Assembly: GCA_022180725.1 (NCBI GenBank)
Contig: BQMO01000023.1
Coordinates: 1 to 64,000 of the forward strand
Direction of reading: 5' to 3'
Length of the DNA: 64,000 nt
DNA from: Phycisphaerae bacterium
Lineage (GTDB): Bacteria > Planctomycetota > Phycisphaerae > Phycisphaerales > UBA1924
Positions 4,633 to 51,567 of the stretch are shown here, one piece after another (position 1 is the first letter of the stretch; each line of letters begins with the position of its first letter). Made by a program: the position numbers and the translations under genes. The notes under the pieces are model-generated. The model was not told the origin of the DNA. It searched no databases and was given only the letters and a program-made list of their open reading frames with translations.

Positions 4633-4790
4633 AGGCCCCGGCGCATCGTACGAGTTGCTGCGCCAGGAATCCCACGGCGCGTCGAGGGGGCCGGCCTGAC
4701 GTATCGCGGATCGTCCACTCATTCAGGCCACGCATCGCCTTACGGGCGGATGACGATGCCCCGCGCCAGCGCACTCTACTACGATGAGCC

Positions 4791-5573
4791 ATGACGACGC
4801 CCGGAAAGTGCGCCGCCCCCACCACCCCCGCGTGGGACGGGGCCGAGTTGGCGAATCCGCACGCGCACGCGGAGAAGCCCAGCAAGGTGCGCCGGATGTT
4901 TGCGGCAATTGCGCCGTCGTACGACCTGAACAATCGACTTCATTCGCTTGGGATTGATCGGTATTGGCGCCGCGTGGCGGTACGGCGGGCGGGGGTGCGG
5001 GCGGGCGAGCACGTGCTGGACGTGGCCTGCGGCACGGGGGACCTCACGCAGGGCTTCGCGGCGTCGCCCGCGGCACGGGTGGTCGGGCTGGACTTCACGC
5101 GCGAGATGCTGGACATCGCCGAGCGCAAGCGCGCCCGGCTGCCCGCCGGCTCTGCGGCGAAGGTCACGTACATCGAAGGCGACGCCACGGCACTGCCATT
5201 CGACACGGGATCGTTCGACGTGGTGTCGATCGCGTTCGGCATCCGGAACGTTTCGGACGTACCCAAGGCGCTCGGCGAGTTCCATCGTGTGCTGCGTCCG
5301 GGAGGGCGGCTGATAGTCCTGGAGTTCGATACGCCGCGGAACCGGATCGTGCGCTGGCTGAACACGCTGTACTGTGCCCGGATCATGCCGAGGACAGCGA
5401 CGTGGATCAGCGGGGATCGCTCGGGCGCGTATGCGTATCTGCCCGCGTCGGTGAACACGTTCATGTCGCGCGAGGCGCTGAAGGACTTCATGCATGACGC
5501 AGGATTTGCGCGGATGGACGATGAATCCCTGACGCTGGGCCTCTGCGCGTGCTATCGGGCGTGGAAGGGGTAA
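4791..5573 (+). CDS. menG: Demethylmenaquinone/ubiquinone C-methyltransferase (MenG/UbiE family)
   Basis: The enzyme adds a methyl group from SAM to the quinone ring, the last step of menaquinone synthesis. Seen are VRRMFAAIAPSYDLNNRLHS (residues about 33-52, the UbiE signature), SAM motif I LDVACGTGDLT near 80, the acidic loop VVGLDFTREML, and FGIRNVSD...VLRPGGRLIVLEF. The 260 residues include a non-conserved N-terminal extension of about 25. TACGAT ends five bases before the ATG with no Shine-Dalgarno, suggesting a leaderless message. Whether the substrate is mena- or ubiquinone cannot be told from sequence; menaquinone is expected in planctomycetes. Confidence 0.93.
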   Translation: MTTPGKCAAPTTPAWDGAELANPHAHAEKPSKVRRMFAAIAPSYDLNNRLHSLGIDRYWRRVAVRRAGVRAGEHVLDVACGTGDLTQGFAASPAARVVGLDFTREMLDIAERKRARLPAGSAAKVTYIEGDATALPFDTGSFDVVSIAFGIRNVSDVPKALGEFHRVLRPGGRLIVLEFDTPRNRIVRWLNTLYCARIMPRTATWISGDRSGAYAYLPASVNTFMSREALKDFMHDAGFARMDDESLTLGLCACYRAWKG

Positions 5574-9807: not shown

Positions 9808-9813
9808 TACACT
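9808..9813 (+). promoter_or_regulatory. -10-like TACACT directly before prmC (leaderless pattern)
   Basis: TACACT ends six bases before GTG 9820 and there is no Shine-Dalgarno sequence. The spacing puts the transcription start at the start codon. Confidence 0.5.
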
Positions 9814-9819
9814 CCGCGC

Positions 9820-10743
9820 GTGACTCACCGCTCCGCCGCATCCGAAACCTGGACGACGCGTCGGCTGCTGACGTGGATGGGACAGACCTTTGCCGCCAAG
9901 GGGCTGGAATCGCCCCGGTTGATGGCGGAGATGCTGATGGCGCATGTGCTGGGGTGCGAGCGGCTGCGGTTGTACATGGACGTGGATCGACCGGCCTCGC
10001 CGCTGGAGCGCGAGGCCCTCCGCGACCTCGTCGCGCGCGCCCTCAAGCACGAGCCGGTGCAATACCTCGTCGGCGAGGCGTGGTTTTACGGCCTGCCGTT
10101 CCATGTCGATCCGCGGGTGCTGATCCCCAGGCCGTCGACCGAATCGATGGTGCAGGAGGTGCTCCAGCATCACCGGGCGCGGCATGGGGCGGCCGGACAG
10201 GACGGCCGGGGCGTGATGATCGCCGATGTCTGCACGGGGTCGGGGTGCATCGCCGTCGCGCTGCTAAAGAACCTGCCAGAGGCGCGCGCCGTGGCGACGG
10301 ACCTGAGCACCGAGGCGCTGGAGGTGGCGCGTCGAAACGCGGCCCGGCATGGCGTGAGTGAGCGCGTGGAGTTCCTGGCGGGCGACCTTCTGACGCCGGT
10401 CTTGGCGCACGCGGCGGCGGGAAAGGCGGGGGCACTGGACTTTCTTGTGAGCAACCCACCATACATACCCGACGACGAATGGCCGCACCAGGTCGGGCGG
10501 AACGTGCTCGATCACGAACCCCACCTGGCGCTGCGGGGTGGCGCGGACGGGCTGGACCATGTCCGACGGCTCCTGAACGATGGCCCGGCGCTGGTGAAGC
10601 CTGGCGGGCTGGTGCTCGTCGAAGTGGCGACCTCACGGGCGCGAGCGGCCGCATCCCTGGCCTCGGGCGCGGGCTTGGGGCATGTGCGCGTGGTCCGCGA
10701 TCACGAGGGGTTGGACCGCGTGATCGTCGGGGAGCGTGCGTAG
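9820..10743 (+). CDS. prmC: Peptide chain release factor N5-glutamine methyltransferase (HemK/PrmC family)
   Basis: PrmC methylates the Gln of the GGQ motif in release factors RF1/RF2, speeding termination. The N-terminal helical domain (TWMGQTFAAKGLESPRLMAE) is followed by PVQYLVGEAWFYGLPFHVDP, VLIPRPSTE, the SAM motif IADVCTGSGCIAVALLK and the catalytic SNPPYIPDDEW. Release-factor versus L3-protein (PrmB) specificity cannot be fully separated by eye, but the N-terminal region is PrmC-like. GTG 9820 was chosen because TACACT sits six bases upstream; GTG 9790 is an alternative. It converges on secA with a 13-base gap. Confidence 0.9.
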   Translation: MTHRSAASETWTTRRLLTWMGQTFAAKGLESPRLMAEMLMAHVLGCERLRLYMDVDRPASPLEREALRDLVARALKHEPVQYLVGEAWFYGLPFHVDPRVLIPRPSTESMVQEVLQHHRARHGAAGQDGRGVMIADVCTGSGCIAVALLKNLPEARAVATDLSTEALEVARRNAARHGVSERVEFLAGDLLTPVLAHAAAGKAGALDFLVSNPPYIPDDEWPHQVGRNVLDHEPHLALRGGADGLDHVRRLLNDGPALVKPGGLVLVEVATSRARAAASLASGAGLGHVRVVRDHEGLDRVIVGERA

Positions 10744-14852: not shown

Positions 14853-15212
14853 TTACCCCGCGGCGGGCGGGGGCAGGTCCGCCTTCAGCACGGGCACCGC
14901 GAAGGCCGGCGCCGTGACCGGCGCGGGCGGGGTCACCACCGTCAGAACCCGTTGAACGCTCGGCAACTGACGCCGGGCTTCGATCGTCGCGGTCGGCACC
15001 TGACGCTGCGTCCGCGTCTGCCGGGCCGTCCGGGCGGCCTCGACGACAGCGACCGACCGGGCAACTTCCGTTCGGTACGCCGTACCACGCTTGATGTCGC
15101 GCAACCCGGCCGAGGCGTTCAGGGCGAAGGCCACCACCAGCAGCAATGTCACACCCCCGAGCGTGACGCTCGAGCGTTGGCGGGTGCTGGAGGATGCCTC
15201 GAGGATCGTCAT
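14853..15212 (-). CDS. Small single-pass membrane protein
   Basis: The 119-residue product has a short basic N terminus, one membrane helix (VTLGGVTLLLVVAFALNA, about residues 17-34), and an Arg/Thr-rich, Ala/Pro-rich exterior or periplasmic tail. GATAGT ends six bases before the ATG, a leaderless-like arrangement. It lies 130 bases upstream of secA on the same strand. I recognise no family; size and topology recall small divisome or secretion accessory proteins, but nothing specific supports that. Confidence 0.55.
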   Translation of the reverse strand: MTILEASSSTRQRSSVTLGGVTLLLVVAFALNASAGLRDIKRGTAYRTEVARSVAVVEAARTARQTRTQRQVPTATIEARRQLPSVQRVLTVVTPPAPVTAPAFAVPVLKADLPPPAAG

Positions 15213-15396: not shown

Positions 15397-15402
15397 TACA
15401 TT
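15397..15402 (+). promoter_or_regulatory. -10-like TACATT directly before the NrdJ C-terminal gene
   Basis: TACATT ends exactly six bases before ATG 15409, with no ribosome site between, matching the leaderless arrangement at prmC and others. Confidence 0.5.
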
Positions 15403-15408
15403 GCCCCC

Positions 15409-15822
15409 ATGACGACCGGGCCGACCAGCGAGGGCACGCCGCACGAGGAGCACGCGCCGATGATCGCCAGCCGTCAGTCCTTGCCCGTCACGCGCGAATC
15501 GATCACGCACAAGTTCAGCGTCGAGCGCCACGAGGGGTACCTCACCATCGGGCTGTACCCCAACGGCAAACCGGGCGAGATCTTCATCAAAATGGCCAAG
15601 GAAGGCTCGACCATCTCGGGCATGTGCCAGGCCTTCTGCCGAGCGTTCAGCCTGGCCCTCCAATACGGCCTGACGGTCGAGGAGGCCGTCGCCCGCTTCA
15701 AGGGCATGCGCTTCGAGCCGATGGGCTTCACCAGCAACCCGGATATCCCCGAGTGCTCGTCGATCGTGGACTACGTGGCCCGGTACCTGGAGTTGAACTT
15801 CGGGTCCGGTCGGCGTTCGTAA
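15409..15822 (+). CDS. Stand-alone C-terminal domain of B12-dependent (class II) ribonucleotide reductase
   Basis: The 137 residues match the C-terminal region of NrdJ: ITHKFSVERHEGYLTIGLYP, then GEIFIKMAKEGSTISGMCQA, then FEPMGFTSNPDIPECSSIVD and YVARYLELNFG. In most class II reductases this domain is fused to the catalytic barrel. A split arrangement exists in Pseudomonas, where NrdJb is a separate small subunit needed with NrdJa. No catalytic subunit is in this window. With NrdR at 4092, this suggests a split or regulated class II enzyme encoded elsewhere. An alternative is a free regulatory relative (TSCPD-domain protein). Start chosen by the leaderless -10. Confidence 0.8.
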   Translation: MTTGPTSEGTPHEEHAPMIASRQSLPVTRESITHKFSVERHEGYLTIGLYPNGKPGEIFIKMAKEGSTISGMCQAFCRAFSLALQYGLTVEEAVARFKGMRFEPMGFTSNPDIPECSSIVDYVARYLELNFGSGRRS

Positions 15823-15876
15823 CAAAAAACTGCGTTCCCGGGTGGCATTCGGCCCCGCGTGTGGCATGGTAAGACC

Positions 15877-16674
15877 ATGAGACGGGTTGGCCTTGGCATG
15901 GGTGCGCGCGCGGGGTGGGTGGCGCTGTCGCTCGCGCTCGCAGGGGCCGCGACGCCCGCCATGGGCCACATCATCTACGCGACGAGTTTCGAACCGGGGC
16001 AGGGGTTCCCCGGGCCGCTGCCGGGTCAGGACCTCTGGCAGGGAACCACCGGCCCGGCGGCATGGCGGGTCACCAACGCCGACTCGTACTTCGGGTTCCA
16101 CAGCGTGGTCTTCAATGCCATCAACGGCCCGCAGGCCGAGGCGTACCGCCAGACGGCGTACATCCAACTCGACCCGATTCCCGGGTGGGTCGTCTTACGC
16201 CTCGAGGGGTACTTCAAACTCGAAGGGCTTCGCCCGGATTCCACGAGTTCCTTCCGCTTCTGGTCGGTGAACGAAGTGCCCGGCGGATTGCTCCAGGTCG
16301 GCATCGACAACGGGCGCGTGGTGGCGACCAGCGGGATGAACAACGCCCCGCTGCTGATCGGCCCGGCCGTGCCCCTGGGCGAGTGGAACTACCTCGTCGC
16401 CGAGATGGACATGTACACCGGCGCGGTGACGGGGATGCTCAACGACGTGCCCTTCGGCGGGTTCCAACTCAGCATCCCCGACATCGAGGCGCTCGAGAGT
16501 TCGACCGGCATGTCGTTCTCCGCGTCGGTCAGCGGCGGCACCGGCCCGGCCACCGAACGCCTCTACATGGATTCGCTGCGCATCTGGCACACGCCCGCGC
16601 CCGGCGTTGCGTCTGTCGCGGCCACGGCGCTCCTCTTCATTCACCGACGCCGTCGATTCGTTGCCCGGGCTTGA
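15877..16674 (+). CDS. Secreted protein with PEP-like C-terminal sorting tail
   Basis: A signal peptide (about residues 1-30, cut near ATPAMG) precedes a beta-rich domain of about 200 residues that resembles LamG-like or concanavalin-type secreted domains (IYATSFEPGQGFPG near the start). The C terminus TPAPGVASVAATALLFIHRR followed by more Arg is a Pro-motif, hydrophobic helix and basic cluster, the architecture of PEP-CTERM and related exosortase sorting signals. CATGGT ends six bases before ATG 15877. The binding target and enzyme activity, if any, are unknown. Confidence 0.65.
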   Translation: MRRVGLGMGARAGWVALSLALAGAATPAMGHIIYATSFEPGQGFPGPLPGQDLWQGTTGPAAWRVTNADSYFGFHSVVFNAINGPQAEAYRQTAYIQLDPIPGWVVLRLEGYFKLEGLRPDSTSSFRFWSVNEVPGGLLQVGIDNGRVVATSGMNNAPLLIGPAVPLGEWNYLVAEMDMYTGAVTGMLNDVPFGGFQLSIPDIEALESSTGMSFSASVSGGTGPATERLYMDSLRIWHTPAPGVASVAATALLFIHRRRRFVARA

Positions 16675-24928: not shown

Positions 24929-25393
24929 ATGGAAGAGTCGATGCTTCACCAGCGGTTGCGAGGCGCGGTTGGCCGGCGGAGTTACCGCGAACTCGCCGAC
25001 ATGACGCACACGCACCCCGAAACTGTTCGACGCTACCTCCTCGGACACACGCCCAGCGTGGAGTTTCTGACCCATCTGAGCCATGGACTGAACCTCAACG
25101 GCGAATGGCTCCTCACCGGGCGCGGGCCGATGAACGCCTCCGACGTGCGGCCGCAGGCCTTGCGTGAGGCCAATCCGTCCGAACTGCTCAACGCTGTCGC
25201 CGCCACGCTCGAGCGATTGATCCAGCGGGTCGAGCGTCTTGAACTCTTCGTCCAGACGATGGAGGTTCGCCTGCGAGCCCGCGAGGGCGGGCTACCCTCC
25301 TCGGATGGGCCGTCCGCCGCTGCACAAGCCCCCGCGAAAGTCGCCCGTATTGCCGATGCCATCCCAAGGCGATCATCTCCGGATGCTCGTTGA
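24929..25393 (+). CDS. XRE-like helix-turn-helix DNA-binding protein
   Basis: Residues 5-65 form a compact helical domain with a helix-turn-helix (YRELADMTHTHPETVRRYLL) and the phage-repressor-like end FLTHLSHGLNLNGEWLLTGR. The remaining 90 residues include a short coiled coil (ATLERLIQRVERLELFVQTM), likely for dimerisation, and a disordered tail. GGAGAACGCC precedes the ATG. The promoter upstream is strong. Its 3' end overlaps the next gene by 89 bases in another frame. Target genes are unknown; autoregulation is plausible. Confidence 0.8.
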   Translation: MEESMLHQRLRGAVGRRSYRELADMTHTHPETVRRYLLGHTPSVEFLTHLSHGLNLNGEWLLTGRGPMNASDVRPQALREANPSELLNAVAATLERLIQRVERLELFVQTMEVRLRAREGGLPSSDGPSAAAQAPAKVARIADAIPRRSSPDAR

Positions 25394-25667
25394 GTTGCTC
25401 GAACCGGCGGGGCCTGAACTCGCCCGGCGCTGGCTCGCGGCCCTGCTCACGGTCGATCGCGCAGCCCGCGCGTCATTGGTCGCGGAGATCGAGCGCCGCG
25501 TGGCGGAGGCGTACCCGCCGCCCGAGGGTCTGCCCGCGGAGGTCACCGTTCACCACCCACCCGTCCAACGCGATGGCTATATCGAAGAAGTCACGACGAC
25601 GTACGTCGTGGGGGAACGAAAGCCGGCGAAGCGCTCGACACGACCGCGCAAATCCAAGGGCGCCTGA
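25305..25667 (+). CDS. Small protein of unknown function overlapping the HTH gene
   Basis: The 120 residues have a basic N terminus, a central helical part (LVELLEPAGPELARRWLAAL, then VAEIERRVAEAY) and a Lys/Arg-rich C terminus. TACCCT ends six bases before ATG 25305, the same leaderless spacing as at prmC, which supports this start even though it lies inside the preceding gene. Initiation at ATG 25356 or ATG 25383, next to the HTH stop, is the alternative. No family recognised. Confidence 0.55.
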   Translation: MGRPPLHKPPRKSPVLPMPSQGDHLRMLVELLEPAGPELARRWLAALLTVDRAARASLVAEIERRVAEAYPPPEGLPAEVTVHHPPVQRDGYIEEVTTTYVVGERKPAKRSTRPRKSKGA

Positions 25668-27517: not shown

Positions 27518-28801
27518 TCAATCTCGGATCCAGTGGAAACCGCCCGATTTCAGCGGGAAGGTCTTGTCGTCCACCCGGCGAAGGCGCGCCCGGATGGCGT
27601 GCCCGTTCTCCTCGCCCTCGAACACGAAAACGCCCTCGCCGGGACGCGTGTACCGCAAGGCCCGCGGAGATCCGCCCCCGAAATCCGTCAGCATCACCGT
27701 CGAGGCGGCCTCGTCGAGCGTCATCCGATACCAATACAACGTCCCCGGCATGTGCTGGATCGTCATCATGCCGTGCCGGTTGAATATCACTCGTCGCCAC
27801 CGGGTGTGATCGGTCGTCAGCGGCGGGACCTCGACTCCATCGCGCGCAAACGATTCCACCGCGTACACGCCGTAATGCGGAGGCGAAGGCGCCGCCTCGC
27901 CGTAGGTCTTCCAGACCTCGTACCCGCCCAGACCCTGCGCGATGGTGAAGTATCCGCCCGCGATCGTCGTGCAAGCGAGCGCGACCCACCGCCACAGGCC
28001 GCGGTTCCACGGGCACTCGGACGGCGGCCCGGGCACGACCCGGCGAAGCGTCACACACGCCGCCAACCGAGGTACGTGCGGCGCCAGCAGGAACAGCGTC
28101 ATCAGAAAGAGGTGCGTGGAGTAGAGTTTGACCGGCACGTCGTAGAAGAAGTTGAGCAGCATGACATTGCCCATCACGCCCATGAGCAGCAACGCGCCGA
28201 GCACCGCCGTCCGCCGCCAGAAGAGCAGCACGCCCCCCACCACCTCGCACGCCCCGGCGAACACGGTGTACGGCGTGGAGTACCCCATGAAGTTCCAGAG
28301 CAGGCCCATGGGCGAAGTCTGCCCGAACTCGCTGATCAGCGACTCGTACCCGGGGAAGGGAAACTGGCTCTTGAATACTTTGGCGTACCCGTACCCCAGC
28401 ATCGCCGTTGCCAGCACGTAGCGCACGTAGACCGTGAGCGCCTCGTGCAGCACGGGATACGCCCGCCGACGACGATCGAGCACCGACCACACGAGGCACG
28501 CCGCCAGGGCGAGCGCGAGCGTGACCAGCGCCTGGATGTAGTGGAACGTCGTGTCCCCGCTGCCATTCGGTACGAACGCGACCTTCCGGCCGAGTATCCA
28601 CTCGCCCGCATGCGACGCCAGCGAATCCCACGCTTTTTTGTACCAGTACGCGGCGTACACGCCGTACGGCACGCTGCCCAGCGGGCCGGGGAGGTTGTAC
28701 AGCAGCAGGTAGGCGAAGATGAATCGGAACAGGACGCGCGTGGGCCATCGCCACGCCGCGGGCGAGGCCGTCGCCACCACGGAGGAATCCCATCGTTCCA
28801 T
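27518..28801 (-). CDS. DoxX-like integral membrane protein
   Basis: The first 260 residues have about six to seven hydrophobic helices (for example VLFRFIFAYLLLYNLPGPLG, YVLATAMLGYGYAKVFKSQF and VVGGVLLFWRRTAVLGALLL), with the G-x-x-KVF and EVVGG patterns seen in DoxX/DoxD-like quinone-associated membrane proteins. The last 150 residues are soluble and beta-rich, ending near the C-terminal Trp. Substrate is unknown. The start was set at ATG 28801 because TATGCT ends six bases upstream with a TTGCGG box 18 bases further. Confidence 0.75.
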   Translation of the reverse strand: MERWDSSVVATASPAAWRWPTRVLFRFIFAYLLLYNLPGPLGSVPYGVYAAYWYKKAWDSLASHAGEWILGRKVAFVPNGSGDTTFHYIQALVTLALALAACLVWSVLDRRRRAYPVLHEALTVYVRYVLATAMLGYGYAKVFKSQFPFPGYESLISEFGQTSPMGLLWNFMGYSTPYTVFAGACEVVGGVLLFWRRTAVLGALLLMGVMGNVMLLNFFYDVPVKLYSTHLFLMTLFLLAPHVPRLAACVTLRRVVPGPPSECPWNRGLWRWVALACTTIAGGYFTIAQGLGGYEVWKTYGEAAPSPPHYGVYAVESFARDGVEVPPLTTDHTRWRRVIFNRHGMMTIQHMPGTLYWYRMTLDEAASTVMLTDFGGGSPRALRYTRPGEGVFVFEGEENGHAIRARLRRVDDKTFPLKSGGFHWIRD

Positions 28802-33065: not shown

Positions 33066-33710
33066 TCACCCATCCAACGCCCACGCCTTCACCAGCCACC
33101 GCTCCACGAACGCATCAACCTGACTGGGTGACGTGAGTTCGATCCGGTGCGTGACGCGATCCTTCTTCGCGAACCCACCGGTATCCACCAGCCGCGCGGG
33201 GAGTTTCTTCCCCGCCTTCACCATCGGCCCCAGCGCCAGCCCGAAGTCCACGCGCGTGTTCGTGCTCGGCTTGATCTGCGCGATCACGTGCGTCCGGTAC
33301 AACGGCACGATCGTCTCGCACGGGCACACGCGCACGTCCTTGAGTTTCTTCCGCGCCAGCAACACCAGCGCCTCGTAGATCGGCCTGAGGGCTTCCTTCT
33401 TTCCCGCGTACTGGCCCGCCGCATACTTCGGCGCCAGCGCCAGGTACCGCTCCGGGCTGTCGTCGCGCAGGGACAGGTCATTCCCGTGCGCCCGCTCGGC
33501 GAGCCACCACGCCGTATTCGTCCCCAGGTTGTGTTCGTCCTTCAACCAGGCGCGTGTCGCCTTCTCGTCCTTGGGCCCGTGGGCACGGATGTGCTTCATC
33601 CAGCCGTCGAGCGGCTTGCCCGTCTTGTCCTCCAATGTCTCGATCCATTGCTGGACCATGGCGACGCCGGGGTGGACATCAAAAGTGGTCCAGGGGGAGG
33701 GCTTGGGCAT
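33066..33710 (-). CDS. DUF4287/DUF5655 domain protein
   Basis: The N-terminal part (VQQWIETLEDKTGKPLDGWM, then AWLKDEHNLGTNTAWWLAER) matches DUF4287, and the C-terminal part (YEALVLLARKKLKDVRVCP, then KKDRVTHRIELTSPSQVDAF) matches DUF5655. The pair is common in soluble bacterial proteins of unknown activity. The length of 214 residues fits. TACGCT ends five bases before the ATG within the 18-base gap after the helicase gene, suggesting its own leaderless promoter. Confidence 0.82.
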   Translation of the reverse strand: MPKPSPWTTFDVHPGVAMVQQWIETLEDKTGKPLDGWMKHIRAHGPKDEKATRAWLKDEHNLGTNTAWWLAERAHGNDLSLRDDSPERYLALAPKYAAGQYAGKKEALRPIYEALVLLARKKLKDVRVCPCETIVPLYRTHVIAQIKPSTNTRVDFGLALGPMVKAGKKLPARLVDTGGFAKKDRVTHRIELTSPSQVDAFVERWLVKAWALDG

Positions 33711-33728: not shown

Positions 33729-35864
33729 TCACTCATCCTCGACCGTGATCTTCGCCCCCTCCGGCAGCGCGGCGAGGAACAACCGACCGTAGCGCGCGGT
33801 ACGGACACGCTCATCGAGAATCACCACGCGCCCCGTGTCCGTCTTGCCGCGGATGAGCCGTCCGACGCCCTGCTTGAACTTGATGACGGCCCGCGGGAGC
33901 GAGTCCTCCATGAACGGGTTGCCGCCGCGGGATTCGATCAGCTCGGACCTCGCCTGCGTGAGAGGCCGATCGGGCGGATCGAACGGGAGTTTCGTGATGA
34001 TGACGTTGCGCAGCGCCTCGCCCCGCACGTCGACCCCCTGCCAGAACGACGCCGCCCCGAAGAGCACGCTCTTTCCGCTCTCACGGAAGCGCTGGAGGAT
34101 GGCCGAGCGAGACCCGTCGCGGCCCTGCGCGAGAAGGGGGTACCCCAACTCGGCGAGCGGGCCGGCGAGTTCCGAGGCGCACCGGTTCAACGCCGCGAAC
34201 GACGTGAAGAGCACGAACGCCCCGCCCCGCGTCGCGTCGACGTGACGGAGAACCACCCGTGCCAGCGGCGAGAGCCCGTCGCGCCGCTCGCCCGCGTCAT
34301 CCGCGTCCGAAAGCGTCCGGGGCGCGCCGCCCCGGCGGGATTGGGCCTCGCTGCCACCGCCGCGCTCCAGGTACACGGTCATCTGGCGGGCAAAGTCGAA
34401 CGGGCTGCCCAGTTGCAGGGCCTTGGCCCCCTCGCAGCCCAGGCGCGCGATGACGTGCGCGAAGGCCGTCTCGGCGGATTCACCCGGCTCGTCGTCGCGC
34501 ACGCTCCGCGTCGCCAGCGTGGCGCTGGTCAGGGTCACCGAGCACTTCTGCCGGAAAAGCCGCTCCCGCAGGATCGGCCCGACCTCGACCGGCGCGCACG
34601 CCAACGTCACCCGCGCCCCGCCCGCGTGGTCGTCCCGATCCGCCAACGTCTCCACCCAGTACGCGCACCCCGCGAGGGTCTGACTCACGAGCGTCTCGGC
34701 GGCCTGGGCGATCATCTCCGCCCGGATCGCGTACGCGTTGAGTTCGTACCGATCCTCGTCGCCGACCACGCCCTCCCGCAGCGCCTTCAGCCGAAGCGCC
34801 AGATCGCGCATGGCCGGGGTCAGCACGTTGGTGACGGCCCCCGGTTCGCGCACCCGCACCGAGCGGGCCTCGTCTCCGGCGTGCGTCCAAGGCGTGTCGC
34901 CGCTCCCGCCGCGGGTCAGCGCCCGCAGGTCGTCGTAGAACGCCCGTGTCGCGTGCATCGCCTGGTCCACGCACCGCACCGCCGCCGCCAGCCCGTCGCC
35001 CTCCGCCCGCAAGGCCAGATGGGGCAAGTAGCCCTTCCCGGTTCGCGGATGGGCGAGCGACGTGAGCAGGTGGGCCACACGCCCTTCGGGCAGCGTCAGC
35101 CCGAAGTGGTCGCTGGCCACCTCTTCCACCGCGTGCGCTTCGTCGAGGATCACGTGGTCATAGTCCGGCAGAATCCCCGCGTCCTGCGCCCGCAGGTTCA
35201 GGTCCGCGAAGAACAGGGCGTGGTTCGTGATGAACAGATTGGCCCCGTCGAGTGCACCCCGCGCCGCCTGGTAGAAGCACTGCGCATACGTCGGGCACTT
35301 GCGCCCCATGCAGTTGCCCGAGTCGGACTGCACCTTGTCCCACACGCCCGCGCGCTCCAATGGCGGCAGCGTCGAGGTCGTCCCGTCGCGCGTCGTCATC
35401 GCCCAATCTTCGATCACGTGCAGCGACCGCCTCGCCGCGGCGTCGGCGAAGAGCCGGTCCTGCCGCTGCGAGGCCAGTTTCAGCCGGCGCAGGCTCACGT
35501 AGTTCCCCCGCCCCTTCACGAGCACCGGGCGCAGCCGCCGGACACCCTCGGCCCCGACGGGCGCCAGCAGCGCCTCGAGCAGCGGCACGTCCTTCTCGAT
35601 GAGTTGCTCCTGGAGGGCGATGGTGTTGGTCGCCACGACGACCTTCTCGCCCCGCTCGATGCACCGCATCACCGCGGGCACGAGGTACGCGAACGATTTG
35701 CCCACGCCCGTGCCCGCCTCGACGAGCAGGTGCGAGCGCGTCTCCATGGCCCGCGCTACGGCCGACGCCATCGCCCCCTGCTCGGGACGCGCCTCGAACG
35801 CCGCGCCGAGATGGGCCGCGATCGGGCCTGTCTCGCTCAGAATGTCCGCCACGCCAGTTGGCAC
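33729..35864 (-). CDS. dinG: DinG-type ATP-dependent DNA helicase (XPD/Rad3-like)
   Basis: Superfamily-2 helicase. Walker A VEAGTGVGKSFAYLVPA is near residue 50, DEAH is in VILDEAHAVEEVA, and the iron-sulfur cluster cysteines cluster in NCMGRKCPTYAQCFYQAA between them, as in DinG and XPD. C-terminal motifs include LFTSFAALNRC, FGAASFWQGVDVRG and the closing KQGVGRLIRGKTDTGRV. Likely role is unwinding of damaged or R-loop DNA. I place the start at GTG 35864: TACCAT ends five bases upstream and this begins just after the rsmG stop, whereas the longer ATG 35900 form overlaps rsmG by 20 bases. Confidence 0.9.
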   Translation of the reverse strand: MPTGVADILSETGPIAAHLGAAFEARPEQGAMASAVARAMETRSHLLVEAGTGVGKSFAYLVPAVMRCIERGEKVVVATNTIALQEQLIEKDVPLLEALLAPVGAEGVRRLRPVLVKGRGNYVSLRRLKLASQRQDRLFADAAARRSLHVIEDWAMTTRDGTTSTLPPLERAGVWDKVQSDSGNCMGRKCPTYAQCFYQAARGALDGANLFITNHALFFADLNLRAQDAGILPDYDHVILDEAHAVEEVASDHFGLTLPEGRVAHLLTSLAHPRTGKGYLPHLALRAEGDGLAAAVRCVDQAMHATRAFYDDLRALTRGGSGDTPWTHAGDEARSVRVREPGAVTNVLTPAMRDLALRLKALREGVVGDEDRYELNAYAIRAEMIAQAAETLVSQTLAGCAYWVETLADRDDHAGGARVTLACAPVEVGPILRERLFRQKCSVTLTSATLATRSVRDDEPGESAETAFAHVIARLGCEGAKALQLGSPFDFARQMTVYLERGGGSEAQSRRGGAPRTLSDADDAGERRDGLSPLARVVLRHVDATRGGAFVLFTSFAALNRCASELAGPLAELGYPLLAQGRDGSRSAILQRFRESGKSVLFGAASFWQGVDVRGEALRNVIITKLPFDPPDRPLTQARSELIESRGGNPFMEDSLPRAVIKFKQGVGRLIRGKTDTGRVVILDERVRTARYGRLFLAALPEGAKITVEDE

Positions 35865-38013: not shown

Positions 38014-40409
38014 TACAGGTACCCCTCGGCGATCAACGCGTGCACGATCTGGTTCGCGATCGGGCCCGACACCTTCCCCCCGCTCCCGCCGAAATCAATC
38101 ACCACCGCGATGACATACCGAGGCCGGTCGCGCCCCACCATGATCACGAACCATGAGTGATCTCCCTCTTCCAGAACCTCACGCGGCTCCGGGCCGGGGC
38201 CGTCGGGGTCCGCGCCGAGCACCCTGGGCGCGTCCGCCGTCCCCGTCTTGCCCCACACCTTCACGCCCTCGGCGTTGAAGATCGGTTCCTCGCGTCCATC
38301 GATCGTCAGGTGGTGCCCCGTACCCAGACGGTTGTTCACGCTCCCGTCCAAGCCCGCCATCGCCGCCGCCACCGCCGTGCTCTCCAGCCCAAGGTCCAGC
38401 GGCTCCCCGCGTGGCTCGCCCGCGATGACCCGCGGCGGGAGCGTGATGCCCCCGCGCGCCAGCGTCGCGTACGCGTTCGCCGCGTGCATCGGCGTCCACG
38501 TCACCGGCCCTTGCCCGATCCCCGTCTGGGTCGCGTCGAACACGCTCATCCCGCGGTCGGGCGCGCTGCGGCGGAACCCCACCGCGCCGGCGGCCTCGCC
38601 CCCCACGCCCAGCGCGAACGTCCGCCCCACGCCGAACGACTCGAACGCCTCGATCACGCCCGCCGCCCCCAGCCGCTGCCCCAGCGTGTAGAAGAAGATG
38701 TTGCAGGAGCACATCGTCGCCTCGTCCGCCGCCAGGTCGTGCCCAAGCAGGGCCGAGTGCGTGGTGCCGAACTGCTTGTAGATCCAGCACCGGAACGCGT
38801 TGGGCTGTTTCGGGAATAGATGGCCCGTACAGGCGATGTGCTCGGTCAGGTGGTACTTCCCGTGCCTGACCGCCTCGACCAGCACCAACGGTTTCACGAT
38901 CGACCCCGGCGTGTAGTACTTCCCCACCGCCCGGTTCACCAGCGGCGTCGTGAGCGTGTCCTGCGCCAGGAGCGACCACTGCGTCCTCGCCTCGTCCCGC
39001 GTGTACGTCGGCGTGCTCACCATCGCCAGCACGTCGCCCGTGTCGATCTCCAGCACCACCGCCGCCCCGTACAGCGGGTCGCCCAGGCGCTGCGTCGGGC
39101 TGTGCTGCCGATGCCACGCCTGCACCCGCGCCAGCCCCGCCTCGGGGGCCATCAGCGCCTGCACCTTCGCCTGGAGCACCGCGTCGATGGTGAGGTGCAC
39201 GTCCCGCCCGGGCCGCGGCGGCGTCACCTGCTGTTCGCGCGTATCGAGCCGGCTTCGCTGGATGCCCCGCAGCCCGCGCAGCACGTGCTCTCGTGAATAC
39301 TCGATCCCCGACGCGCCGATCCGATCCCCGTCGCGGTACGAACCCCGGTCGACCCCAAGCCCGACGAACGCCTCGGCACGTGCTTCGGGGTTTGCGTCCA
39401 GGTACGCCGCACGGCGGTCCGCGTCCCCCACCGTCGCCGCGACGCCCCGCGCGGCGTCGCCCGGTGCCGACTGATACACCGTATCACGCGTCGCCCCCAG
39501 CACGTGCGTCAACACCCCCGTGACGTCCACCACGATCGGCTCGTCCGAGCGCAGCGGCGACGGGAATGTCCCGCGTAGCACTTCCACCCGCGCGGCTTCC
39601 ATCGGGTACTCACGCTCCCCACTGTCACGAACCTCCAGCCCGGGCACCGCCGCGACCAGGTCCGTCGGCACGCGCCGTGATTCGCTCAGTCGATCGTCGG
39701 CCTGGGGCAGTTCGACCTCCACTTCGTCCGCCGACAGCGCCATGCACGCGAACGCCACATCATCGGCCACGCGACGCACCAGCACGTGCGCCTGCTCCCG
39801 CTCGGCGATCGCCGCCTCGGCCCGACGCGTCATCGCCCGCAGTTCCTTTTCCGGCACGTCCTTCCCCGCGTACGGCGCCAACTCCTCGGCCAGCCGCGCT
39901 TTCGTCACCGCCTCCTGCCGTGCCGCCACCCGGCGCATCACCTCGTCCCGCGCCGCGTCCAACGCCGACCGCTCCACACCCGCCGCCCGCGCCAACCGAT
40001 CCCACGCCGCGTCCACGTGCACCTTGAAGACCGGGAGAAACCTCGCCACAACGGCCTCTCGCTCGTCGCGGCTGAGGCTGCCCCACTCCGACCCCACGCT
40101 CCGCGTCGCCGCCCGACGCGCCTGGGCCTGCGCCCACGTCCCGTCGAGCACCCGGAAGTCCACCGCGAGGTCGAAACTCGGGCGGTCCTGCGCCAGCACC
40201 CGCCCTTTGCGGTCGAGAATGCTCCCGCGGACCGTCGGTGTCTGTCGGCTGCGCACCAGCCGCGCCTCCGCCGCCTCCAGGTGTTCCCCCGCCCGCGCCA
40301 GCGACAGCCGCCCCAACTGCCATGCCAGCGGCACGCCCCCCACGCCCGCCACCGCCAGCAGCAGCAGCAGCCTCCGATGGAACATGCTGGGGATGAGCGT
40401 GCGCAGCAC
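38013..40409 (-). CDS. mrdA: Penicillin-binding protein 2 (elongasome transpeptidase)
   Basis: A class B PBP with one N-terminal membrane helix (RLLLLLAVAGVGGVPLAW) and a dimerisation domain (TPTVRGSILDRKGRVLAQD). The transpeptidase active site shows the SxxK motif in TPGSIVKPLVLVEA, SxN as CSCNIFF and KTG as WGKTGTAD. At 798 residues it is longer than E. coli PBP2, with an extra helical, Arg/Glu/Ala-rich segment of about 150 residues between the N-terminal domain parts. GTG 40409 was chosen because TACGTT ends six bases upstream; GTG 40412 and ATG 40385 are alternatives. Coupled to rodA downstream. Confidence 0.93.
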   Translation of the reverse strand: MLRTLIPSMFHRRLLLLLAVAGVGGVPLAWQLGRLSLARAGEHLEAAEARLVRSRQTPTVRGSILDRKGRVLAQDRPSFDLAVDFRVLDGTWAQAQARRAATRSVGSEWGSLSRDEREAVVARFLPVFKVHVDAAWDRLARAAGVERSALDAARDEVMRRVAARQEAVTKARLAEELAPYAGKDVPEKELRAMTRRAEAAIAEREQAHVLVRRVADDVAFACMALSADEVEVELPQADDRLSESRRVPTDLVAAVPGLEVRDSGEREYPMEAARVEVLRGTFPSPLRSDEPIVVDVTGVLTHVLGATRDTVYQSAPGDAARGVAATVGDADRRAAYLDANPEARAEAFVGLGVDRGSYRDGDRIGASGIEYSREHVLRGLRGIQRSRLDTREQQVTPPRPGRDVHLTIDAVLQAKVQALMAPEAGLARVQAWHRQHSPTQRLGDPLYGAAVVLEIDTGDVLAMVSTPTYTRDEARTQWSLLAQDTLTTPLVNRAVGKYYTPGSIVKPLVLVEAVRHGKYHLTEHIACTGHLFPKQPNAFRCWIYKQFGTTHSALLGHDLAADEATMCSCNIFFYTLGQRLGAAGVIEAFESFGVGRTFALGVGGEAAGAVGFRRSAPDRGMSVFDATQTGIGQGPVTWTPMHAANAYATLARGGITLPPRVIAGEPRGEPLDLGLESTAVAAAMAGLDGSVNNRLGTGHHLTIDGREEPIFNAEGVKVWGKTGTADAPRVLGADPDGPGPEPREVLEEGDHSWFVIMVGRDRPRYVIAVVIDFGGSGGKVSGPIANQIVHALIAEGYL

Positions 40410-45073: not shown

Positions 45074-45145
45074 GCGGGCGTAACTCAGTGGTAGAGTGAC
45101 AGCCTTCCAAGCTGTACGTCGAGGGTTCGAATCCCTTCGCCCGCT
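45074..45145 (+). tRNA. tRNA-Gly (anticodon TCC)
   Basis: Cloverleaf with acceptor GCGGGCG/CGCCCGC, anticodon loop CTTCCAA between ACAGC and GCTGT, T arm GAGGG-TTCGAAT-CCCTT, discriminator T. CCA is not encoded. Confidence 0.95.
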
Positions 45146-51060: not shown

Positions 51061-51528
51061 CTACGCCGCCGCGGGCACCACGCGGGGCGGCGTGTCCCAG
51101 GAGGGAGCCGGTGTGGCGTTCACCGCCGTAATCGTCTCCGGCGTGGGCATCACCTTGGCCGCACATGGCAACCCACATTCCGGGCACGTCGGGTTGGACG
51201 ACTCCAGCCCGAGCAGTTCATACCCGCAGGCTCGGCATGGCACTTCGATCCGCTCCCGTCGTACGGTCCACAGATACCCCCCGAGCGGGAACAGCAACGC
51301 GGCCTCGACCACGAGCATCAGCCGGAACAGGACCCCGGGTGGCCTGCCGGTGAACCATACCCCGAGGCTGTAGTCCACCCATGCGAGCAACGCCAGGCCG
51401 AACAGACTCGCCGCCAAGACCGCCGCGCCGAGGAACCGTCGACGCAGTCGGTACACCGCGTACAGCACGATCGCGCCGTAGATGGGGAACAGGATCACGT
51501 ACGTCTCCACGTCGCCGGGACACCCCAC
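51061..51528 (-). CDS. Membrane protein with C-terminal zinc ribbon
   Basis: Two to three hydrophobic segments (VILFPIYGAIVLYAVYRL, FLGAAVLAASLFGLALLAWV, RLMLVVEAALLFPLGGYLW) are followed by a rubredoxin-like ribbon, CRACGYELLGL then CPECGLPC, two CxxC pairs. The tail is Ala/Pro/Thr-rich. Small proteins with this membrane-then-ribbon layout recur in planctomycetes; function is unknown. TACACT at 51538-51543 would put transcription start near GTG 51528; GTG 51537 is the alternative. Confidence 0.6.
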   Translation of the reverse strand: MGCPGDVETYVILFPIYGAIVLYAVYRLRRRFLGAAVLAASLFGLALLAWVDYSLGVWFTGRPPGVLFRLMLVVEAALLFPLGGYLWTVRRERIEVPCRACGYELLGLESSNPTCPECGLPCAAKVMPTPETITAVNATPAPSWDTPPRVVPAAA

Positions 51529-51567
51529 GATCGGCACAGTGTACCACGATTCCGGCGAGTCAACGTC

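Follow-up and report, generated by a model that had tools for sequence, protein, structure and literature searches.

A −10-like TAnnnT box immediately upstream of start codons suggests widespread leaderless transcription in a high-GC Phycisphaerae genome

The window considered here is the whole stretch of DNA that was analysed, bases 1-64000 (64,000 nucleotides) of contig 23 of a planctomycete genome (3.54 Mb, 30 contigs, 68% GC), and it carries genes on both strands whose start codons are closely preceded by a hexamer of the form TAnnnT. For example, prmC (9820-10743, plus strand), whose product has a PrmC_N Pfam match, shows TACACT at 9808-9813, a 6-base spacer and a GTG start at 9820, and its probability of being led by this box, P(TA-led), is 0.95 in the mixture model of gene starts described below. 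Four further sites score at least as high: menG/ubiE (4791-5573, plus strand; Ubie_methyltran), with TACGAT at 4780-4785, a 5-base spacer and ATG at 4791 (0.97); a stand-alone TSCPD gene (15409-15822, plus strand; TSCPD Pfam match), with TACATT at 15397-15402, a 6-base spacer and ATG at 15409 (0.97); a DUF4287/DUF5655 gene (33710-33066, minus strand; Pfam match), with TACGCT at 33721-33716, a 5-base spacer and ATG at 33710 (0.99); and a dinG-like helicase gene (35864-33729, minus strand; Helicase_C_2), with TACCAT at 35875-35870, a 5-base spacer and GTG at 35864 (0.96). Two more minus-strand genes score lower, namely a membrane gene (28801-27518; TATGCT at 28813-28808, a 6-base spacer, ATG at 28801; 0.76) and an mrdA-like transpeptidase gene (40409-38013; TACGTT at 40421-40416, a 6-base spacer, GTG at 40409; 0.70). 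A small open frame on the plus strand (25305-25667; TACCCT at 25293-25298, a 6-base spacer, ATG at 25305) is known from its sequence only and was rejected as a gene by the coding-potential caller, which makes it a weaker site.

These eight hexamers, five or six bases before their starts, had been listed in an initial annotation of this DNA, and all were found at that spacing when the letters were re-read. The accompanying claim that none of these starts has a Shine-Dalgarno (SD) sequence also held, in that seven of the eight scored 0.70-0.99 for P(TA-led) and no more than 0.02 for P(SD) in the mixture model, the eighth being the uncalled frame at 25305. Two non-consensus hexamers that had been placed in the same series are present in the letters at six bases, but their membership is doubtful: GATAGT (15224-15219, minus strand, ATG at 15212) reached a P(TA-led) of 0.51, and CATGGT (15865-15870, plus strand, ATG at 15877), which is without the first T of the box, is unsupported by the model, which favours a start at 15898 over 15877 for this secreted gene. 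Conversely, a good site absent from that list lies before a 155-aa gene on the minus strand (51528-51061), where TACACT is followed by a 9-base spacer and GTG at 51528 (box to start, 51526-51543; P(TA-led) 0.93). Two gene labels also changed on inspection. The membrane gene at 28801 had been called DoxX-like, and a DoxX match does exist, but at 23.2 bits it falls just under the Pfam cut-off of 23.6. The gene at 15409 had been taken for the C-terminal part of NrdJ; it is instead a small and conserved NrdJ-tail paralogue, the full-length frame (about 1165 aa, likewise with a TSCPD domain at its C terminus) lying on another contig (G000:C12), and a stand-alone TSCPD copy occurs in 37 of the 41 Phycisphaerales genomes searched.

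The genome as a whole is placed in class Phycisphaerae of the Planctomycetota, despite a high GC content and a TAnnnT motif that are reminiscent of actinobacteria. Within the named-genome collection, its PrmC protein is closest to those of metagenome-assembled genomes of Phycisphaerales, one of them with 68% identity, and the upstream DNA of that one matches a genome classed in the same genus (L063 and L073). A probable primary sigma factor gene was located as a 717-aa frame on contig C14, and the 3' end of the 16S rRNA carries a normal anti-SD sequence, as expected of a genome that mixes SD-led and leaderless genes.

The box is not peculiar to the window. Over some 1.2 Mb of this genome, genes were called by codon usage with a home-made caller and each start was chosen as that with the best coding score, ignoring the upstream letters, so that the starts of the resulting 944 genes were picked without reference to the motif. 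At these starts TAnnnT stood at a spacing of 5-9 bases in 119 of 944 genes, where about 20 are expected, with 30, 40, 19, 15 and 15 genes at distances of 5, 6, 7, 8 and 9 and about 4 per position elsewhere. Internal ATG and GTG codons gave a flat TAnnnT spacing profile with no peak. The initial annotation had proposed a comparison of all starts with shuffled controls as its check, and this was clearly positive, 118 genes against 19.6 ± 4.4 when the 40 upstream bases were shuffled. A de novo scan covered every gapped three-letter pattern at every distance; apart from SD and C-rich runs, the strongest was TANNNT at a spacing of six (40 vs 3.8). Across the whole genome, TACNCT-N6-ATG occurs 74 times against 17 for TACNCT-N15-ATG. 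Stop codons of the preceding gene (TAG or TAA) were considered as a source of the TA and rejected, as 16 of 21 hexamers at close gaps begin with TAC.

An expectation-maximisation (EM) mixture fitted over all candidate starts assigned 24.8% of genes to the TA-led class, 60.5% to the SD-led class and 14.7% to neither, and a mixture of SD-led and leaderless genes, proposed initially as a possible general trait of this genome, is thus seen genome-wide, although the figure of 25% rests on the home-made gene caller and the direct excess corresponds to about 10% of genes. The recovered box is T83 A95 C67 N C57 T92 (consensus TACNCT) at spacings of 5-9, with T1, A2 and T6 nearly invariant and the middle three positions loose; a run begun from TTNNNN converged on the same motif, which had the best likelihood among the starting motifs tried. 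The confident TA-led set comprises 180 of 777 genes and starts only with ATG (138) or GTG (42), and its commonest spacing is 6, with spacings of 7-10 making up about 40% of sites. No start had both TA and SD, against 21 expected; this exclusion is largely forced by geometry, since the two motifs would overlap, and for that reason it is not used as support here. When the model was trained without contig 23, 7 of the 47 genes of the window kept a P(TA-led) above 0.8.

We propose that TAnnnT is the −10 element of promoters at roughly one-fifth to one-quarter of genes, lying 5-9 bases before ATG or GTG and giving rise to leaderless mRNA, and we put the probability of this reading at about 0.9. Leaderless transcription is inferred here because the spacing from box to start is so short, and at TA-led genes transcription most likely begins at the start codon or no more than three bases from it. 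In the mechanism we envisage, TACNCT would be the −10 hexamer of the housekeeping promoter, the housekeeping sigma factor would read it through positions 1, 2 and 6, and RNA polymerase would begin on the purine of ATG or GTG, yielding an mRNA with neither leader nor SD. The ribosome would then load directly on the 5'-terminal AUG or GUG, as on known leaderless mRNAs. The remaining genes, including those inside operons, would use SD sequences, and leadered units would have the same −10 hexamer 20-80 bases upstream.

A −35 box was not detected by matrix, fixed consensus or de novo search. TTGACA, at four or more matches and a spacer of 15-19 bases, was found at 8 of 126 sites against 9-22 in control windows, so that the classical −35/−10 arrangement is not seen at these sites.

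How exactly the first transcribed base is placed bears on the most serious alternative, which is that the box is a true −10 but that many of the mRNAs carry a leader of 1-5 bases and use ordinary 30S initiation, with strictly leaderless messages in the minority. If initiation falls 6-7 bases after the box, spacings of 8-9 allow a leader of 1-3 bases and those of 7-10 up to 4, and about 40% of confident sites have that room; moreover, upstream purines in the spacers are avoided no more than in shuffled spacers. On the other hand, the commonest spacings, 5 and 6, give a leader no room, and a leader so short cannot contain an SD sequence. Such short leaders as the prevailing form are, in our view, rather unlikely, but they deserve the most weight of the alternatives. 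A role for pyrimidines ahead of the start codon in directing the first transcribed base onto it was unsupported, shuffled spacers being much the same.

It is also conceivable that TAnnnT acts in translation on leadered mRNAs, for example by binding ribosomal protein S1 or as another non-SD ribosome signal. The box takes the place of the SD sequence and excludes it, and S1 or leaderless biases have been proposed jointly for planctomycetes (PMC5397173). However, TAnnnT ends 5-22 bases upstream of 12 of 21 tRNA genes, against 1.9 in shuffles and 0.3 at random sites, and in the same forms as at TA-led genes (TACGCT, TACACT, TATACT, TACAAT). As tRNA genes are not translated, these copies argue for a promoter box rather than a translation signal. 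The same hexamer also stands in the sense direction 20-80 bases before SD-led genes, which together with the tRNA copies supports its original description as −10-like: among same-strand neighbours, TA[CT]N[CA]T was found 20-99 bases upstream of SD-led genes 23 times in sense against 2 in antisense, and among divergent neighbours 36 times against 17. At TA-led genes a second copy is nearly absent (3 sense, 12 antisense), and the sequences suggest that a gene tends to have one −10, which lies next to the start codon or farther upstream by the length of a leader. Finally, the box is depleted inside operons. The TA-led share is 8% at same-strand gaps of 10 bases or less and 35-38% where genes are divergent or the gap is 11-40. 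Starts that overlap the preceding gene on their strand were TA-led in just 3 cases and SD-led in 86; TA-led starts favour the first genes of transcription units and are rare inside operons. These patterns indicate that the box acts in transcription and not in translation, and we consider a translation element very improbable.

Individual tRNA genes of this genome, such as those at 45074 (plus strand) and 61643 (minus strand), illustrate the arrangement: TAnnnT lies 8-20 bases upstream, and in most cases no −35 can be recognised. The tRNA-Glu gene on contig C1 departs from this pattern in having TTGACC some 16 bases ahead of its TATCTT.

Orthologues provide a further view of single sites. Within the order, 27 of 38 prmC orthologues retain the box, compared with 0 and 2 in control windows, mostly as TACACT, TACAAT or TAGACT at 5-9 bases before the start and within diverged surrounding DNA, and outside the order TAnnnT was found in 1 of 18. 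Of 30 orthologues of the TSCPD gene, 14 retain its box, and most of these belong to the same family as the studied genome (controls 2 and 2). For mrdA, 6 of 25 orthologues have a box against 2 and 5 in controls, which is no evidence of conservation. The strength of the sites is thus uneven, prmC and the TSCPD gene having the backing of orthologues and mrdA being without it. Single sites such as CATGGT, GATAGT, mrdA and 25305, which have little beyond their letters, could be AT-containing hexamers that occur by chance in intergenic DNA rich in promoters, with starts picked in the initial annotation to fit, but for the class as a whole this explanation is contradicted by the sharp spacing peak at motif-blind starts, the shuffle controls, the held-out test and the retention of the box in prmC orthologues, and we give it almost no credence.

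In four relatives of genus g34 (L103 and L106-L108), prmC is without the box and its start appears to lie close behind or inside the preceding frame, suggesting a possible switch from leaderless to operon expression in that genus. The prmC orthologue set offers material for asking why a gene remains leaderless.

So far, leaderless promoters of this kind are known mainly from Actinobacteria, Deinococcota and archaea. In high-GC genomes of Actinobacteria, around 20% of genes are TA-led, with TAnnnT roughly 10 bp before the start (Zheng et al., 2011, PMC3160421; M. tuberculosis transcription start map, PMC3898074), and the planctomycete genome studied here resembles them in its GC content, in the TAnnnT before the start and in the share of genes involved (PMC3160421, PMC3898074). 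The difference lies in the host, Planctomycetes being unmentioned in the 2011 text (PMC3160421). A report on Deinococcus-Thermus describes TANNNT, mostly TACACT, which in nearly one-third of genes lies 6-7 bp ahead of the ORF, and an ORF-adjacent −10 motif in Deinococcus that works alone and is strengthened by an added −35, as shown by mutation and RpoD binding; that study also included a bacteria-wide scan (PMC12340547). The two systems share a TANNNT near the ORF, coexisting SD genes (GGAG there) and no requirement for a −35, and the missing −35 in our genome agrees with the Deinococcus motif acting on its own; ours differs in its phylum, its consensus TACNCT, its share of about one-quarter of genes and in being known from sequence analysis (PMC12340547). 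For one planctomycete, few SD genes and an AT-rich bias were previously ascribed to 'leaderless mRNA and/or RPS1' (PMC5397173); unlike in that single species, SD genes are the majority here, and our analysis adds a motif, a spacing and evidence for a promoter. A search of the open-access literature found no description of leaderless genes in Phycisphaerae, the lone co-mention concerning anti-SD classes. Thus, the mechanism and the favoured hexamer were already known, and it is the lineage that appears to be new. The Planctomycetota would then bring to three the high-GC bacterial phyla in which leaderless promoters leave a clear signature that can be counted, and the spread of that signature within the phylum can be mapped. 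The motif also offers practical guidance on where genes start in these genomes, most of them from uncultured organisms, in which gene finders that rely on SD sequences could misplace many of them.

The breadth of the signature was assessed by comparing TACNCT-N6-ATG with TACNCT-N15-ATG in 148 whole Planctomycetota genomes under a Bonferroni threshold. It was significant in 20 of the 148, the strongest families being f1 and f6 within the order and f33, f36, f42, f44, f49 and f59 elsewhere in the phylum. Families f40, f52, f34 and f70 had N6/N15 ratios near one; the TACNCT count is tuned to high-GC genomes, so that a low-GC genome without the signal tells little. For direct start profiles, relatives were profiled by candidate starts, 100-kb samples with codon-score starts being underpowered even in the studied genome itself; these profiles agreed in the order, as well as in f11 and f22, two further high-GC families belonging to the class, and gave no signal in three sampled genomes outside the class. 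Phycisphaerales and scattered families of Planctomycetota probably run about one-quarter of their genes from −35-less TACNCT leaderless promoters, the mode being absent or undetectable in other families and so gained or lost repeatedly. The strongest signature of all was observed in the genome of an order-level relative (L101, genome G104), with 59 TACNCT-N6-ATG against 3 controls.
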